DNA of 29,862 nucleotides from a virus: positions 1-29,862 of IMG/VR virus record IMGVR_UViG_3300025121_000119; one strand, 5' to 3'. The notes under the pieces are model-generated. The model saw only the letters and a program-made list of their open reading frames with translations. It was not told the DNA's origin and did no database searches. A program made the position numbers and the translations under genes. The number at the start of each line of letters is the position of its first letter. The stretch's first letter is position 1. Shown in pieces: positions 8,044-25,524 of the stretch.

Positions 8044-11000
8044 TTATATTTCGATAACTCTTGCCAACGCACTCAATCCATTTACTTCTCCCACAATATC
8101 TCCACATATTCTACCCCCGTCTTGCAAAGGGTAATGATTTCTCAAACTCCCAACTCCATCGGCTGTTGTATAGAATTTAATATTCCTAATTTGTCCTGCA
8201 AAACTATAACCTGCTGTTTGATTGGCGTGTCCAAAATTCATAGCATAAGTAGCATTAGCAACTGATAAGCTGCCAACAGGAGTTGTATCATTTCCTATTT
8301 CAACACCATCTCTCAATAAGTATATTGCTGTTCCAGTACCATAAAGAATATAAGAATGTGGTAAATCATCTAATGGATTTGCAACCGATGAAATAGCAAG
8401 ATAATTTGATGCTCCACCTGTGTTTAATGTTACTGTTATAAGAGCGTTTGCCTGGCTTATTCGAATACCGTAAGACACACCACCATTTTGATTTGCAAAT
8501 ATTCTTCGTCCTAATGAATAGTCATAAGAACTATTCAATATCATTTCCCATTCAATTCTAAATACACCTGTTTGATGTATATAATTAAAATCTGATACAG
8601 AACCAATGTTGTATAGCCAACTCGCAACGGTATTACTTAAATCACACCATAAATCTTTATGTCTTAAAACATTTGTATTATTGTTTATAATTGACACATT
8701 ATTAACTGTACCTTGCAAACCTGTTATTCTATCAGTCATTAAATCTTGTGCATTTTGTAGAGGTAAAGACATAAATGGAATTGTTCCTGCATAATCGGTA
8801 TAAATAATAAAGTTTCTTAAACTAAATTCAACTTGATATGAGCCACTTCTTAAAAGTGCGCTTGATGTTACTGCATTGGGTATATATGCACAAGCAACTA
8901 ATCCACTATCATAACCTACAACCCCTGTTGATATTACAGTTCTTATAACTCTTATATTTGTTCCATCGCCTTGAATTGTATAATGATATGGAACATTAAA
9001 ACCAATTGTTCCACCATTTGCATTATAGGCATATGTACCAGACCCGTTGCACCAGTATACTTGCATACTGGTTGAGTTTTGGATTAACATAAAGCCGAAA
9101 TTCGTTGTAGCATTTCCAGTATAAAATAATCTCTGTGTTGAAGAAACGTATCTAATATGTGTTAAATCGAATTGCATATTAAAAACACCTCCATTCATCC
9201 AACCCAATGTTGAAGTATCACCGATTGTAAATTGCGCATTAAGTGCTGGTGTTGCATTTGGTTTAAAATAAGCCCAATTTCCGTTTTCATTAATATCAAC
9301 CACAGTCAATGTTCCAGTCACAGTTCCATTTAATCCACCCACAATATCTTTTCCTATATTACCTCCATCTTGTAAAGGAAAATTATAAACTAAACCACTT
9401 GTATCTTGTGTATTATAAAATTTAACATTTCTTATTTTACCTCGCATTAAACTAACAGTTGTATAACCCCCAATAGTCCCAGCTAATGCAGCATTTCCAC
9501 TTGCCACTATTACTCCCGTCCAGGTTATTTTTCCATAACTTGTCGGCGTTGCACCATTTAAACCAGCCCATAATGTTACACCTGTTCCATCACCTATTAA
9601 TATTATTTTATAGGTTCCAATCGTAGTAAATAACGTCCAATAATTAACTGCTGGATATATATTAACTCCACCACTACCAAAATAACAATATAGTCTACCT
9701 GATGTTGTAGATTTAAATAAATACATCCCATTAGCGGCGGCTGCAATTCTCGTTGTAAATAAAATATCATTAACAGAAATCAATTGTTCAACAATACATT
9801 CTAATTCAATTCTAAATATACCTGTTTGATGTATCCAATTAAATGATGTAGCGTCTCCTATTGGACTTACTCTACCCAATGCACCTTCGGCTACACTTCC
9901 AAACTTGCACCAAGTATTCTTACTTTTCAATACATTTGTATTAGTATTTATTATTTGAACATTTGTTGCAGTTCCTATTAACCCACCAACTCTATCTATC
10001 ATTATATCCTGTGCATTTTGCATTGGCAAAGATAAAAATGGAATTGCACCTGCAGTATCTGAAAATATTTTAAAATCTCTAACATAACCATCTAAAAATA
10101 ATGGTGTTCCTCCACCACTAAATCTTAAAGGATAAGTAGTAACGGCTTGTGACACATAACCACCAGATGGACTTACATCTCCACTATCATAGAATATGCT
10201 ATCATCCTCATTATAAATTATGTAACGACATATAGACCCATCACCATAGCAGAGATATTTATAAACACTGCTAACTACTTGATTTGATGGTGGTCCAATA
10301 GATAAAATATTATTAGTAGTGTCACTCATTGTGAAATATACTCTTGGATTAGTTGTAACAAGTCTAAAAGCAAAGCCTGTATGGTTGTTATCAAATCCAG
10401 TTCCTATTAAACCATTATTATTTAAGTAATCAAAAGAATTTAATTTCATTGTAAATGAAATTCTAAATATTCCTGTGTGTATCCAAGCGAAAGTTGAGGT
10501 GGTGCCAAGTGATGCTCTTGCATCTACGCCATTAAAATATGACCAATTAGTTTCATTTATATCAACTACGCTCATGTCAGTTATTGTGGATGCTGTTAAA
10601 CCCCCTATTATATCTTTTGATATGTTGTTGGTGTCTTGAAGGGATGCTTGAAATACAAGAGTATTATTTTTTGTAATTTTAAGGTTGCGAAGGTAACCGT
10701 TGAAATAATACCCCGCTGAAGGATAACTTATAAAGAGACCATTTGTAGTATTTGTCATTCCAGTATAAGTCCCAGTCATAGAATTAGTTGTGGCCAATAA
10801 AACATTATTATTATATATTTTCAATCCATTTGCAGTTTTTGAACCATCATAAGTAAATTTTAAATGGTATAAAGTATTTAATGTTGTGGTATAAGATGCT
10901 AATATATATGATGCTGCATTAGAATTTAAACAGAAAAACCTTAATGTATTTGTGTTTACATTAAAATCTATTAGCCATTCAACGGTAGATGCTCCTTTAA

Positions 11001-17582: not shown

Positions 17583-18050
17583 ATGAATAACGAGGAATAT
17601 ATAAGACATAAACTAAGAATATTAATTCGAGAAGGAATTGCTGACTTTATAATGAAAAGAGTTCTCAAAGACAAAGAAATGAAATTAATGATGTCAGCAA
17701 CGTTATACGGAGCTCCATATTCAACAAAACCATATGTACTGAAGAAATACACCGAGAAGAAAGAAGAAGAATTTACAATTGATTTAAAGCATATTTTTAA
17801 CGATAATGTAATAGTTAATCATGATAAAAAAGCTAGGGAAGTTATTACATATACAAAAGACAATAAACAACTTTTTACAATCAAGCTAAGTTCTGATAGA
17901 CTAAGACCATCCTACATAAGATTTGATTTTTTAAAACCAAAAGAAAAAATAAAAATCCCAGTTACAATTTCGAAAGAAGAGGTTGAAAAACTTATTTTAG
18001 ATAAAAAGCAAACTATGATAGATTCTGGGTTTGAAGATATTTTTAAATAA
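17583..18050 (+). CDS. Hypothetical protein, 155 residues
   Basis: A basic, soluble protein on the plus strand. The N-terminal part is helical (YIRHKLRILIREGIADFIMK), the middle has TLYGAPYSTKPYVLKKYTE, and the C-terminal half mixes strands and helix (KQLFTIKLSSDRLRPSYIRF, TISKEEVEKLILDKKQTMID). The (L)RxLIREGI type of N-terminus occurs in several phage head or tail proteins, but I do not recognise a family. It is divergent from the giant fibre gene across a 63-base gap carrying two oppositely oriented promoter-like elements. Its last 8 bases overlap the end of the convergent endonuclease gene. Structural or assembly function is possible from the neighbourhood only. Confidence 0.78.
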   Translation: MNNEEYIRHKLRILIREGIADFIMKRVLKDKEMKLMMSATLYGAPYSTKPYVLKKYTEKKEEEFTIDLKHIFNDNVIVNHDKKAREVITYTKDNKQLFTIKLSSDRLRPSYIRFDFLKPKEKIKIPVTISKEEVEKLILDKKQTMIDSGFEDIFK

Positions 18051-19098
18051 CACCATCAACAAACAATTCTATTTGTTGTTTAGATAATAAAACCACAATT
18101 TTATCTCCACTGTCAATAACTGATTTCCACTTTACTTTGTTAACTTCTTCGAGCTTTTTGTCTTTCCCATTTTTATTATATGTCCACCCAGATTTTATTT
18201 CTATATTATTTCCATTATAAAAAAAGTCTGTATGATAAACATGTTCCTTTTCTTCATAGGTATAACCATAAGATTTACCATTTTGGACTTCGTTTAATTT
18301 GCCTTTTTCTTCCATTTTTTCTAGGAAATGAAGTTCGTAGGAACCTTGATAGTTAATTCCAGATTCCTTATACTCTAAAATTTTATATTGAGCCTTTAAA
18401 TGTTTTTGAAACATGTCATAATCTTTAAGGTGATGAGAAACCCCAAAATTCTTTACTGATGTTTGTTTTTTCTTTTCTTTTATCTCTTTGTTTTGAGAAG
18501 CATTTTCGACCCCAAAATTCTTCATGGTTGTTTCTTTTACCTTTTCTTTTGTAGAATCTAATTCTGAAACATTTTCCACACCATAACGTTCTATATTTGT
18601 AGCTTTTTGTTTGTCTAAAAATTCTGGTAATTTTAAATGATGTTCAACTCCAAACTTTTCCATTGTAGTAACTTTTCTTCTTTTTGCAAGCTTTACATAA
18701 TAATCTTCCCCGTATCTTTCTTTTACTGTTTTAACTTGCTTTTCTTTGTTATTATAATTTTCATCTCCATACACTTCTTTTTTTGTGTTTTTCGACTTAT
18801 CTTTAATGTCATCCAATTGAAAAACATTGTCTACGCCAAATTTTTCTTTTATAGCTATTTTTGATAGTTTAATTCTTTTTTCAATGTTTTCTGGTATTTG
18901 TTGCCACTTTTTTCTACACTCTTCTGAACACAGCTGTCTTTCATCTTTTTTTCTTACTTCAAATTTTTCGCCACAAAATAAACAACTTCTAGTTTCTCGA
19001 CTGTTTATTTTCTTTAGTTCGTCTGCACATTTTCTACAACAAGTTTTCATCCCATGTTTGGGATTTTCTTTTTTACAAATCAAACAATTTGTTTTCAT
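18043..19098 (-). CDS. Free-standing homing-endonuclease-like protein (zinc ribbons, repeat array, PD-(D/E)xK-like nuclease)
   Basis: A 351-residue, Lys-rich protein in three parts. Residues 5-61 hold two Cys4 knuckles (C5/C8/C20-21/C24 and C39/C42/C57/C61). Residues about 80-235 are seven copies of a roughly 24-residue unit of the form (K/R)(F/Y)GV(E/D)N..Q...IKEK.K.T, a DNA-binding repeat seen in phage-encoded endonucleases. Residues 240-351 carry a restriction-type core: YQGSYELHFLEKM, then YHTDFFYNGNNIEIKSGWTY, giving E, D and ExK candidates. It probably cleaves a specific site in related phage genomes and spreads by repair. It lies between the sheath and fibre operons, converges on the 17583-18050 gene with an 8-base overlap, and has an ATATTTATA element 41 bases upstream. 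No portion looks broken. The exact nuclease family is uncertain. Confidence 0.85.
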   Translation of the reverse strand: MKTNCLICKKENPKHGMKTCCRKCADELKKINSRETRSCLFCGEKFEVRKKDERQLCSEECRKKWQQIPENIEKRIKLSKIAIKEKFGVDNVFQLDDIKDKSKNTKKEVYGDENYNNKEKQVKTVKERYGEDYYVKLAKRRKVTTMEKFGVEHHLKLPEFLDKQKATNIERYGVENVSELDSTKEKVKETTMKNFGVENASQNKEIKEKKKQTSVKNFGVSHHLKDYDMFQKHLKAQYKILEYKESGINYQGSYELHFLEKMEEKGKLNEVQNGKSYGYTYEEKEHVYHTDFFYNGNNIEIKSGWTYNKNGKDKKLEEVNKVKWKSVIDSGDKIVVLLSKQQIELFVDGVI

Positions 19099-21709: not shown

Positions 21710-22420
21710 TTATTTCTCTGAAATTTTAATAGAAATTTTCTTTATAGTGTTTACTTTCTCAAAATCTGAGGGGTCAACTATTTTCCCGTGAATAATTATT
21801 GGTACAGATATTTGATAAATTCTCTCTGATGAAATATCATCCAAAGAAGATTCATCAACTGGCTCCCCCATTTTCAAAGCAATATAATAACCATTAACAT
21901 CTAAGTAACCTTGTCCATTAGAATAAGCTTTATCTAACATCATTTCGTAAAAATCATCAACATCTTCTTGATAATGACCTACAAATTTCACATCAAATTC
22001 AATGTCAACCCAGGCTGGTTGTGGAACTTTATATAAATCATATCCCTTTAAAGTTCCATCAAAAACTGGGACTTTTAAAAAAGTAAAAGCTTTTTTATTC
22101 GGAATAGTAAATTTATTTGGAGAAGTTCCTCTTTTTACAGCAGTTCTAACCAACGCAATAAAAGGTCTAGCCATTTCTTCGCCATTTTCAGCTCTCATTT
22201 CTTTCCAATTCATTTTTCTTTCAGCCCATAATTCTTGAGATATATAAACCACTGGAACTCTTCTGGATAAGCCTGTTTCCATAATTAAAGAAAGATTTTG
22301 ACTTATAATAAAATTTTTAAAAGCCATACTTAAATCTTCTATATTAAGTTTTTGGGGAAGATAATTATGATTTTCAAATTGTTTGTCTAAGCTTTTTCCT
22401 ATGTTCCTATTGATACCCAT
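21710..22420 (-). CDS. gp15: Tail terminator / sheath stabiliser (T4 gp15-like)
   Basis: A 236-residue protein. Features are NIEDLSMAFKNFIISQNLSL, METGLSRRVPVVYISQELWA, ARPFIALVRTAVKRGT and a beta-rich centre PQPAWVDIEFDVKFVGHYQE, followed by DDFYEMML. The end is ISVPIIIHGKIVDPSDFE. This pattern (a modified base-changing field, 'P.P..I.I.V.FVG.Y.EDV..' and a 'V.G.ILD' type strand) fits the gp15/terminator family of T4-like phages (T4 gp15 is 272 residues). It caps the completed tail and joins it to the neck. Position supports the call: it lies between the neck genes and the sheath, as in T4 where 13-14-15 precede 18. It has its own CTATTTATA element 11 bases upstream and a 421-base gap before it. 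Confidence 0.85.
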   Translation of the reverse strand: MGINRNIGKSLDKQFENHNYLPQKLNIEDLSMAFKNFIISQNLSLIMETGLSRRVPVVYISQELWAERKMNWKEMRAENGEEMARPFIALVRTAVKRGTSPNKFTIPNKKAFTFLKVPVFDGTLKGYDLYKVPQPAWVDIEFDVKFVGHYQEDVDDFYEMMLDKAYSNGQGYLDVNGYYIALKMGEPVDESSLDDISSERIYQISVPIIIHGKIVDPSDFEKVNTIKKISIKISEK

Positions 22421-22431
22421 AATGCTTTTTT

Positions 22432-22440
22432 TATAAATAG
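22432..22440 (-). promoter_or_regulatory. Candidate late-promoter element before gp15-like gene
   Basis: CTATTTATA on the coding strand, 11 bases before the ATG at 22420. Confidence 0.5.
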
Positions 22441-22496
22441 CAAAAAATTATTTGCTTTATTAGTTTTTTTTTTATAAATTTGCTTTGATTTTTATT

Positions 22497-22782
22497 ATAT
22501 CAGACGGACAGAAATGCAACACCTGGGTATAATGTATAGCTCTAAAGGGAAGTCGATGAGCAAGTTGAGGACAAAAGGAATAACCAACGACAGGCGAATG
22601 TATCATTCGAGTGTATTCCATACCCAATCAGTGATATGATGAATTGGGGAGCGATAGGCGGGGGGGCGACACCTCAAAAAGTGAGTGTTTAACTAACCAA
22701 ACAGCTAAGTTCTTAATTCCAAAAATCTTTTTTTTGGGGATAGGGGGAACTTAGCTCTGAACGAAAAGGCTATCCCTAAAAA
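22497..22782. ncRNA. Candidate structured RNA in the gp14-gp15 gap
   Basis: The 421-base gap 22421-22841 has no convincing gene. Its central part is about 46% GC by hand count (83 of 180 bases, 22501-22680) against clearly AT-rich surroundings. It contains several perfect complementary pairs. TGGGTAT (22524-22530) pairs with ATACCCA (22620-22626), and CGAATG with CATTCG (22595-22600/22604-22609). CCCAAT pairs with ATTGGG (22623-22628/22643-22648). A bulged hairpin lies at 22669-22688, and a 10-bp stem joins AGCTAAGTTC (22703-22712) to GAACTTAGCT (22747-22756). GGGATAG in the loop of that stem can pair with CTATCCC (22770-22776), a pseudoknot. The transcribed strand is unknown. The flanking genes are leftward, so a leftward co-transcript is simplest, but no clear terminator follows on either strand. 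Function unknown. Confidence 0.45.
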
Positions 22783-22806
22783 GTAAATGATTTATATAAT
22801 AAAAGT

Positions 22807-22838
22807 AACTTATAATAATAACAGCACACTTATAAGTT
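22807..22838 (-). terminator. AT-rich inverted repeat after gp14-like gene
   Basis: AACTTATAA and TTATAAGTT form a perfect 9-bp stem a few bases past the gp14-like stop. On the minus strand it is followed by ACTTTTATT. The stem is weak and AT-only apart from one pair, so it may act as an inefficient terminator or processing site. Confidence 0.35.
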
Positions 22839-22841
22839 CTA

Positions 22842-23408
22842 TTACCTTCCTTTCATGATATCTTCATCAATTTCGCAGGCTTTTATAGAAATATAGAATC
22901 TTCTATCACCACCCCAAGAATGTTTATTTGAAATTTGAGAGAAACCATCATCTGTAATTTGATAATACTGCCCCTTATAATTAATAAAATCGCCCATTTT
23001 AATTTTTGTTATAATTATATTTCCTTGTTCTTTTTCTATTAATTCCAACTCTCTAAGTTGTTCTATATAAATATGAGCAGTAAGATTTCCAAAGCCTTTT
23101 TTAGTAAGGCCAGCTTTTGTCTGATATGAGGGGTCGATTACTTCTACATTTATTCTTCCAAATATTTCTATAGGAGGAAAATAATGTTTTACTTTTGCTT
23201 CACCATATAGCGGATGTAGCTTTGTTTTTTTATAATCAATTTTAAATAGCAGAAAACTTGATTGTAATATATCTTCTGTTATTTCTCTACCAGTGCTAGT
23301 AAAAAATTCAGTTTCCTTATCTGAAAAAAATAACTTTATACCTTTTACATCATTAAGAAGATTGCTTACATCTTCTTGATTTGTTCCTATTTTTCTTATG
23401 TCAGTCAT
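22842..23408 (-). CDS. gp14: Neck protein (T4 gp14-like)
   Basis: A 188-residue protein. Features are GIKLFFSDKETEFFTSTGRE, SSFLLFKIDYKKTKLHPLYG then EAKVKHYFPPIEIFG, and a strand-rich end MGDFINYKGQYYQITDDGFS then WGGDRRFYISIKACEID. The 'PLYGE...Y..P..I.G' and 'G.(F/I)..Y.G..Y.I' segments recall gp14-type head-completion proteins. T4 gp14 is 256 residues, so this is shorter. Gp13 and gp14 together form the neck collar that seals the portal after packaging and receives the tail. It begins 6 bases after the gp13-like stop with no independent promoter element, so they are one operon. Downstream is an AT-rich inverted repeat and the structured gap. The call rests mainly on position plus the pattern. 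Confidence 0.8.
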   Translation of the reverse strand: MTDIRKIGTNQEDVSNLLNDVKGIKLFFSDKETEFFTSTGREITEDILQSSFLLFKIDYKKTKLHPLYGEAKVKHYFPPIEIFGRINVEVIDPSYQTKAGLTKKGFGNLTAHIYIEQLRELELIEKEQGNIIITKIKMGDFINYKGQYYQITDDGFSQISNKHSWGGDRRFYISIKACEIDEDIMKGR

Positions 23409-24941: not shown

Positions 24942-24973
24942 AAAAAACCCCACTATTTAAAGCAGGGTTTTTT
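24942..24973 (-). terminator. Rho-independent terminator after the frameshifted remnant
   Basis: On the minus strand AAAAAACCCTGC, an eight-base AT loop, then GTGGGGTTTTTT make a 12-bp stem with two G-U pairs, ending in TTTTTTATT. It starts right at the end of the remnant ORF and could also work in the other direction. Confidence 0.8.
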
Positions 24974-24974
24974 A

Positions 24975-25302
24975 TTAAAATTCCATTTCATATTTAAATT
25001 TGCCGCAGTCCCATATTCTATCATAGCCTAATTCTTGCATCATTTCCCATTCGGTTTTTTTATCGTTGTAAATTTGGGGGAATTTTCTTTTTAAGGAAGA
25101 CTTACCAAAAGAAAATTTGTGGAATCTTTTATACCTATGAATTTTAGGATTATAATATGTATAATCTGGGTAAAGTTTCTGTTATAAAGCTATAGGAAAA
25201 AGGTAATATCTTTGCTATTTGCTTTGTAGTAAGTTTGTCTTTTAAATAAAGTTCTTTTATTTTTAAGAATTCACTTTCACTGATAATAATTTTTTCTGCC
25301 AT
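24975..25302 (-). pseudogene. Frameshifted small endonuclease-like protein (HTH plus YDRIWDCG domain)
   Basis: The first frame opens at 25302 (MAEKIIISESEFLKIKELYL, then KDKLTTKQIAKILPFSYSFI) and stops at 25150 after 50 codons. It carries a helix-turn-helix-like segment. A second frame, open from 25181 to its stop at 24975, continues as LYPDYTYYNPKIHRYKRFHK, then FSFGKSSLKRKFPQIYNDKK and TEWEMMQELGYDRIWDCGKF. The TEW..MQ..GYDRIWDCG ending is, from memory, common at the C-terminus of phage homing-endonuclease-type proteins. The two frames differ by +1. Dropping one A from the GAAAC run near 25175 gives a continuous SFITELYPDYTYY and about 108 residues. It has its own CTATTTATA element and a terminator, so it was a complete small transcription unit. 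No nuclease catalytic motif remains. A sequencing error or programmed +1 frameshift are alternatives. Confidence 0.72.
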
Positions 25303-25319
25303 AATACTTAATTTATTTT

Positions 25320-25328
25320 TATAAATAG
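25320..25328 (-). promoter_or_regulatory. Candidate late-promoter element before the remnant
   Basis: CTATTTATA on the coding strand, 17 bases before the ATG at 25302. It is the same element as at structural genes, so the remnant was expressed late. Confidence 0.45.
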
Positions 25329-25364
25329 ACGGAATAAAGTTGAAATGGTTGCTTTTGTCGTAAA

Positions 25365-25505
25365 CTATTTATAAACAAATAAAAAGCTTTTAGTAAACTA
25401 TTATTCCTTTTAATGGAGTAAAGTCAAACCACTTCTCCTTATAGTGGAATAAAATCATTTGTTTTATAAAAACAAAAAAAGCGAGTATTAAACTCGCTTT
25501 CTTTA
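25365..25505 (+). ncRNA. Possible small plus-strand RNA in the capsid downstream gap
   Basis: A plus-strand CTATTTATA (25365-25373) is followed by a foldable segment. The pairings are TTATTCC with GGAATAA (25401-25407/25446-25452), GGAG with CTCC (25415-25418/25435-25438) and a competing CCACT/AGTGG. It ends at the capsid terminator stem, which also has a T-rich tail on this strand (TTTCTTTATAATT). No ORF fits. The total would be about 120 bases. The promoter orientation is the only evidence for strand, and a chance match is possible. Confidence 0.28.
25478..25500 (-). terminator. Terminator after major capsid gene, possibly bidirectional
   Basis: AAAGCGAGT and ACTCGCTTT form a 9-bp perfect stem with a five-base loop. 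On the minus strand a TTTTTTTGTTTTTAT run follows, 25 bases past the capsid stop. The plus-strand side has TTTCTTTATAATT. Confidence 0.88.
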
Positions 25506-25524
25506 TAATTATCTTATTAATAGA

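Follow-up and report, generated by a model that had tools for sequence, protein, structure and literature searches.

The slot and its neighbouring genes

The window, by which we mean the whole 29,862-base record of an uncultured virus that was analysed in this study, carries T4-type genes, including those for the large terminase, the tail sheath, the prohead protease and the Gp23 major capsid protein. Between two complete genes, both located on the minus strand, lies an intergenic slot (22421-22841) in which no ORF of at least 60 aa was found. The protein encoded on one side is assigned a gp15 fold based on a structure model with a mean pLDDT of 66, for which the T4 neck complex and T4 gp15 were the best Foldseek matches (E 2.5e-9 to 1.2e-7); the neck-region protein on the other side is without a Pfam or PHROG match (Table 1). 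An earlier note on this DNA had put the GC content of a segment of the slot at about 46%, and this is borne out by the letters: 22500-22680 has 46% GC as against 31% window-wide, the island region has 43-46%, and only 0.3% of all 280-nt segments of the window are as high. The run of seven Gs that had also been pointed out is the sole plus-strand run of at least six Gs in the window, the minus strand having one run of six. A repeated CGAYAGGCG is likewise present as described, at 22588-22596 and 22652-22660; it is not kept in the relative L004 and is probably incidental.

A candidate promoter precedes the structured part of the slot. The pattern TTTG-N18-22-TANNTTTG, which we take to be the Bacteroidetes promoter consensus, has two matches in the window, of which this is the intergenic one, and in 26 slot RNAs a distance of 58-76 nt separates the gp15 start codon from the end of the TANNTTTG-type element. 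The sequence TATAAATA was also considered as a late promoter of the RNA; it was rejected, since a motif similar to its other-strand form, CTATTTATA, precedes several minus-strand structural genes in the window. At the other end of the slot, the AT-rich tail is a possible terminator or unwinding region; the tails of 26 loci have a median length of 65 nt and 20% GC.

Some further features of the window are recorded here in their own right. A CTATTTAT-like motif stands shortly ahead of many start codons, several structural genes included, and may be a phage late promoter or leader motif. A homing-endonuclease-like gene (18043-19098, minus strand; DUF7487, PHROG homing endonuclease) lies between the sheath and tail tube genes; it is also found in the relatives L004, L006 and L040 and was undetected in others. 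The window's tail sheath protein is matched in two segments about 260-270 nt apart in L005, L012, L014, L015 and others, which suggests an inserted variable domain near residue 115. The capsid gene and a 110-aa ORF are separated by a 571-nt gap (24954-25524), which appears to contain a hairpin terminator and, on the minus strand, a degraded coding stretch. A tRNA-Tyr (anticodon ATA) called by ARAGORN at 8973-9062 on the minus strand lies inside a long ORF and is probably false.

Table 1. Features in and next to the slot (positions in the window)
Feature	Position	Strand	Details	Basis
Tail terminator, gp15 fold (flank)	21710-22420	-	236 aa	Foldseek on predicted model
CTATTTATA motif of gp15 gene	22432-22440	-	TATAAATAG on plus strand; divergent from RNA promoter	
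Candidate promoter, Bacteroidetes primary-sigma type	22451-22482	+	TTTG-N20-TAAATTTG	Pattern match
Structured noncoding RNA, class A	22488-22780	+	5' and 3' ends approximate	Covariation, G-U asymmetry
H1	22495-22532	+	22495-22501 / 22526-22532; loop GACGG..CCTG	Class A comparison
H2	22539-22561	+	22539-22542 / 22558-22561; loop AAAGGGAA	Class A comparison, MAFFT covariation
H3	22564-22588	+	22564-22567 / 22585-22588	Class A comparison, MAFFT covariation
PK1	22577-22619	+	GGAATA 22577-22582 / TATTCC 22614-22619	Class A comparison, covariation
H4	22595-22609	+	22595-22599 / 22605-22609	Double change, window vs L012
H5	22623-22648	+	22623-22628 / 22643-22648	Two double changes, window vs L012
G7 tract	22660-22666	+		Sequence
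H6	22703-22756	+	22703-22712 / 22747-22756	Class A comparison
PK2	22737-22776	+	22737-22743 / 22770-22776	Class A comparison
AT-rich tail	22781-22841	+	9-bp inverted repeat 22807-22815 / 22830-22838	Sequence
Neck-region protein (flank)	22842-23408	-	188 aa	Pfam/PHROG: no family

Structure and strand of the slot RNAs

The neighbouring proteins served as anchors for the retrieval of homologous loci. Most of the distinct related contigs have a noncoding gap, mostly of 310-450 nt, between the same two genes, and the slot is kept down to about 46% protein identity. The close relatives found are all metagenomic, and the matches of the anchor protein in phage collections have only 23-26% identity. 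In Flavobacterium phage immuto no such RNA was noticed in the corresponding gap, which reads as coding, and a distant blastn search of the island against GenBank phages gave AT-rich noise only.

A known RNA or intron, an identity that the earlier note had considered, did not emerge from a scan of the window with Rfam 15 (tmRNA, RNase P, group I and II introns, 6S, GOLLD and others), which gave nothing at the gathering threshold and, at E up to 10, sub-threshold chance matches only; the loci of six relatives likewise gave none at gathering level. The suggestion that the island is a degenerate mobile intron, or some other selfish insertion, has the nearby homing endonuclease gene in its favour; however, no group I or II intron model matches, no exons are interrupted, both flanking genes are complete and the window's slot is without a nuclease gene. 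Furthermore, the slot RNA is not degenerate, because compensatory change maintains its fold, and we regard this origin of the island as extremely improbable. The GOLLD and ROOL RNAs are much larger than the slot RNA. They resemble it as conserved structured RNAs of unknown function, some of which occur in phages (PMC12286853), but the slot RNA is without an Rfam match. The VIPR vrRNAs, which are defined by 9-16 tandem YNNGG repeats (PMC13142463), were also considered, as a vrRNA or guide RNA, and rejected, this repeat pattern being absent from the island sequence.

The RNA of the window and those of five relatives (L012, L004, L015, L110 and L072) make up class A, which has six helices (H1-H6) and two pseudoknots (PK1 and PK2). 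H6 and PK2 are the 10-bp stem, formed by AGCTAAGTTC and GAACTTAGCT, and the pseudoknot, with the loop GGGATAG complementary to CTATCCC, that the earlier note had described, and both are present in the letters. PK2 recurs with different letters in L004, L015, L110 and L072, and L012 has one mismatch. PK1, which joins the H3 loop to the strand preceding H5, occurs in several sequence versions, every one of which is complementary over at least 5 bp. Across class A, 278 of 285 cells are paired despite differing letters, a figure that is not unbiased as the helices were picked by eye; H1 was not identified in L072. In a MAFFT alignment of four members H5 is 100% paired and the core has 12 double-change pairs, a number equalled by none of 500 shuffles, and slid controls of this alignment collapse. 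Between the window and L012 the RNA is 89% identical, compared with 75% for the adjoining promoter side and 59% for the tail.

L110 and L072 were fitted into the class by hand and were missed by the covariance model R1, built from the other four members, so that their membership is probable rather than proven. R1 found W-type class A members only, apart from a hit in L127 that was rejected because by inspection it looks like coding sequence. A strict three-helix descriptor (H3-PK1-H5) matches all six class A slots, but in 2.04 Mb it also picks out some tens of background places, which with few exceptions are AT-only, and an exact-pattern scan for the core of L110 and L072 gave no matches beyond these two.

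Class B is the commoner architecture and occupies the slot in most relatives. It starts with a hairpin with the loop GGGGGCGTTG, followed by TTTTRCACTGR and a small hairpin with GGTAGT; after these come a long stem whose last strand is G-rich, CCCTAA and CTGGTAGT, in this order. Based on plain MAFFT alignments, RNAalifold gives this fold strong support, with both sides changed in 31 of 65 pairs for nine class B sequences, and in 17 of 72 for eight others. A class B pattern scan found 19 stretches, every one at the slot locus. A B-like GGGCGTTG segment in L072 and a B-like G-rich stem in L025, both read by eye, are reasons to think that the two classes may share parts. Also by eye, the GGGGGCGTTG and TGGTAGT motifs occur twice each in class B RNAs such as those of L007, L014, L017 and L036, and the paired copies seem to change in concert between phages; they could stem from a duplication within the RNA or be a pair of sites for the same partner. 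In L127 the class B RNA is directly followed, in the same direction, by a gene for a monothiol bacilliredoxin (BrxC; 10346-10720, minus strand; Pfam match), and L128 appears by eye to have a BrxC gene at the corresponding place.

G-U pairs outnumber A-C mismatches by 12 to 1 in class A and by 54 to 8 in class B, and because of this asymmetry the RNA is assigned to the plus strand, which is opposite to both neighbouring genes. The fold energy (z = -2.2 on the plus strand, with 2 of 100 shuffles equally good, and z = -0.8 on the minus strand) is, taken alone, only suggestive. The decisive evidence is comparative, in that relatives have the same stem and pseudoknot made of different letters, and it upholds the earlier reading of the island as a structured phage RNA with a pseudoknot. 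It is therefore very probable that the island is genuinely a gene for a noncoding RNA, about 300 nt in length, which lies on the plus strand among the late structural genes and has a host-type promoter; that the RNA is transcribed, and when, we infer from the promoter. An alternative is that the slot is a cis element of the minus-strand late mRNA, either a leader of gp15 or a processing signal, and judging by the gene order late transcripts of this strand probably do read through the slot. However, the plus strand is favoured by the G-U asymmetry, the minus-strand fold barely beats shuffles, and gp15's own CTATTTATA motif sits between the RNA gene and the gp15 start codon, all of which makes this alternative very unlikely. 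The more specific proposal of a processed gp15 leader fails on the orientation, since gp15 is on the minus strand and the promoter of the RNA faces away from it.

An exchangeable cassette inside the late genes

The occupant of the slot changes between relatives. L109 and L110 have flanks that are 89% and 84% identical, yet the approximately 380 nt of RNA between these flanks are without detectable similarity, and class A members branch from three different parts of the protein tree. One protein family with two winged-helix domains (wHTH) takes the place of an RNA in the slots of three lineages. The wHTH gene is on the plus strand in the L087-type slots and in L117 and on the minus strand in L093 and L111, and in L087, L093 and L111 it is directly preceded by a host-type promoter. 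RNA and wHTH gene exclude each other in the contigs tested: a profile of the winged-helix family had no match in RNA-bearing contigs of 372 and 389 kb, nor in 23 further loci whose slot lacks the gene. Neither occupant is present in the slots of L028, which has a nuclease-like gene, and L016, which has tail-fibre-like genes. This swapping of RNA and protein among relatives, together with the host-type promoters, leads us to conclude that the late genes contain, in this slot, a cassette that is exchangeable and driven by a host-type promoter; its occupant may be a class A, class B or other RNA or a two-winged-helix DNA-binding protein, and most occupants have a host-type promoter of their own.

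The predicted model of the winged-helix protein (pLDDT 74, moderate confidence) has two winged helices and a long helix joining them. Its neighbours in the PDB are mostly transcription regulators, all of them weak matches, and its BFVD fold matches are mixed, with several replication initiators among them. Among PHROGs, the family has its best hits in the replication initiation O-like proteins (L087, 5e-5; L111, 0.0022 and 0.0037).

Possible functions of the slot RNA

We favour, with a probability of roughly 0.4, the reading that the slot RNA is a trans-acting regulatory RNA that is interchangeable with a DNA-binding regulator; this weight, and that given to a replication origin below, is a judgement and not a computation. 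Its action in trans, its partner and its effect, all of which we infer, would be as follows. The RNA would be made from its host-type promoter as soon as infection starts, and would take the part that a DNA-binding control protein plays elsewhere. The helices and pseudoknots of the RNA would keep the G-tract and single-stranded segments in position for the binding of a partner, and the bound RNA would determine how phage genes are expressed or whether there is immunity to related phages. That the RNAs are swapped so often would agree with a selection that favours differing types, as it does in phage immunity regions. The P4 CI immunity RNA, which resembles the slot RNA in the latter's putative role, carries out in its phage what is the task of a DNA-binding repressor in others; it is about 80 nt long and works by pairing with its own leader transcript. 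Several observations speak against a regulator: the best PHROG hits of the winged-helix family point to an origin, the slots of L028 and L016 hold neither occupant, and two of the six class A members are those fitted by hand and missed by R1.

A regulatory or decoy RNA had been among the earlier proposals, and this is still the class of explanation that we prefer. As a counter-defence or host-takeover decoy, the folded RNA would block a host protein, for example RNA polymerase or a defence sensor. This would go well with the host-type promoter, the elaborate fold and the allelic swapping between close relatives; however, it does not specially predict an exchange with a DNA-binding protein, and with no match to 6S RNA or another Rfam family we consider a decoy unlikely.

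The main rival to a trans-acting regulator is an RNA-primed replication origin, which we hold to be possible but not probable. According to this model, host RNA polymerase would make the G-rich RNA, which through its fold and G-tract would form a lasting RNA-DNA hybrid; after trimming by RNase H its 3' end would prime phage DNA, and in relatives the initiator-like winged-helix protein would do the same job. The PHROG and BFVD matches of this protein are in agreement with such a role, as are the G runs of 5-7 that were found in 25 of the 26 slot RNAs measured and the AT-rich tails. A promoter and AT-rich DNA for unwinding are both present, which is not discriminating in an AT-rich genome. On the other hand, the cumulative GC skew of three large contigs has its nearby minimum 16-20 kb away from the slot, at the switch in gene direction, a location that is typical of several T4 origins, though not strictly defining. 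In addition, no convincing iterons were found close to the winged-helix genes, the slots of some relatives contain neither of the two occupants, and the PDB neighbours of the winged-helix protein, weak as they are, are mostly regulators.

Precedents for an origin of this kind are the RepA/RNA prophage origins of mycobacteriophages, the T4 R-loop origins and ColE1 RNA II (PMC7157519, PMC3016281, PMC5043065). Prophage origins of mycobacteriophages are either RepA-based or RNA-based, with repA and the RNA both read opposite to the neighbouring genes (PMC7157519). As in the slot, RedRock and Alma compared with Miko have a noncoding RNA or a helix-turn-helix gene at corresponding places near virion genes, and the RNA is read against its neighbour; however, these phages are temperate and carry parABS, and their autonomous replication has been shown, whereas a replication role of the slot is putative (PMC7157519). 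The T4 R-loop origins include an AT-rich unwinding element, and oriF and oriG resemble the slot in belonging to a T4-like phage and in having a promoter with a short transcript and AT-rich DNA behind it, but they use a MotA middle promoter, about 100 bp are enough and no particular R-loop sequence is needed (PMC3016281). The promoter of the slot, in contrast, is host-type, and the conserved fold of its RNA is unlike the simple origin transcripts of T4. ColE1 RNA II has a G-run, as has the slot RNA. It is also an untranslated structured RNA made by host RNA polymerase, as we presume the slot RNA to be (PMC5043065); however, the slot RNA is only about 300 nt long, and priming by it is putative.

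The most far-reaching claim, that an unknown RNA class is interchangeable with a DNA-binding protein at one locus and that several unrelated folds do the same job, possibly as RNA-primed, cassette-swapped T4-like origins, appears doubtful to us. With the present findings, the core of a T4-like phage lineage gains a structured RNA family that Rfam does not contain, as well as a locus at which RNA and protein take each other's place. Two questions thereby become open to experiment: whether an RNA can substitute for a DNA-binding protein of control or initiation, and what kind of selection maintains the exchange of RNAs between phages that are otherwise similar.
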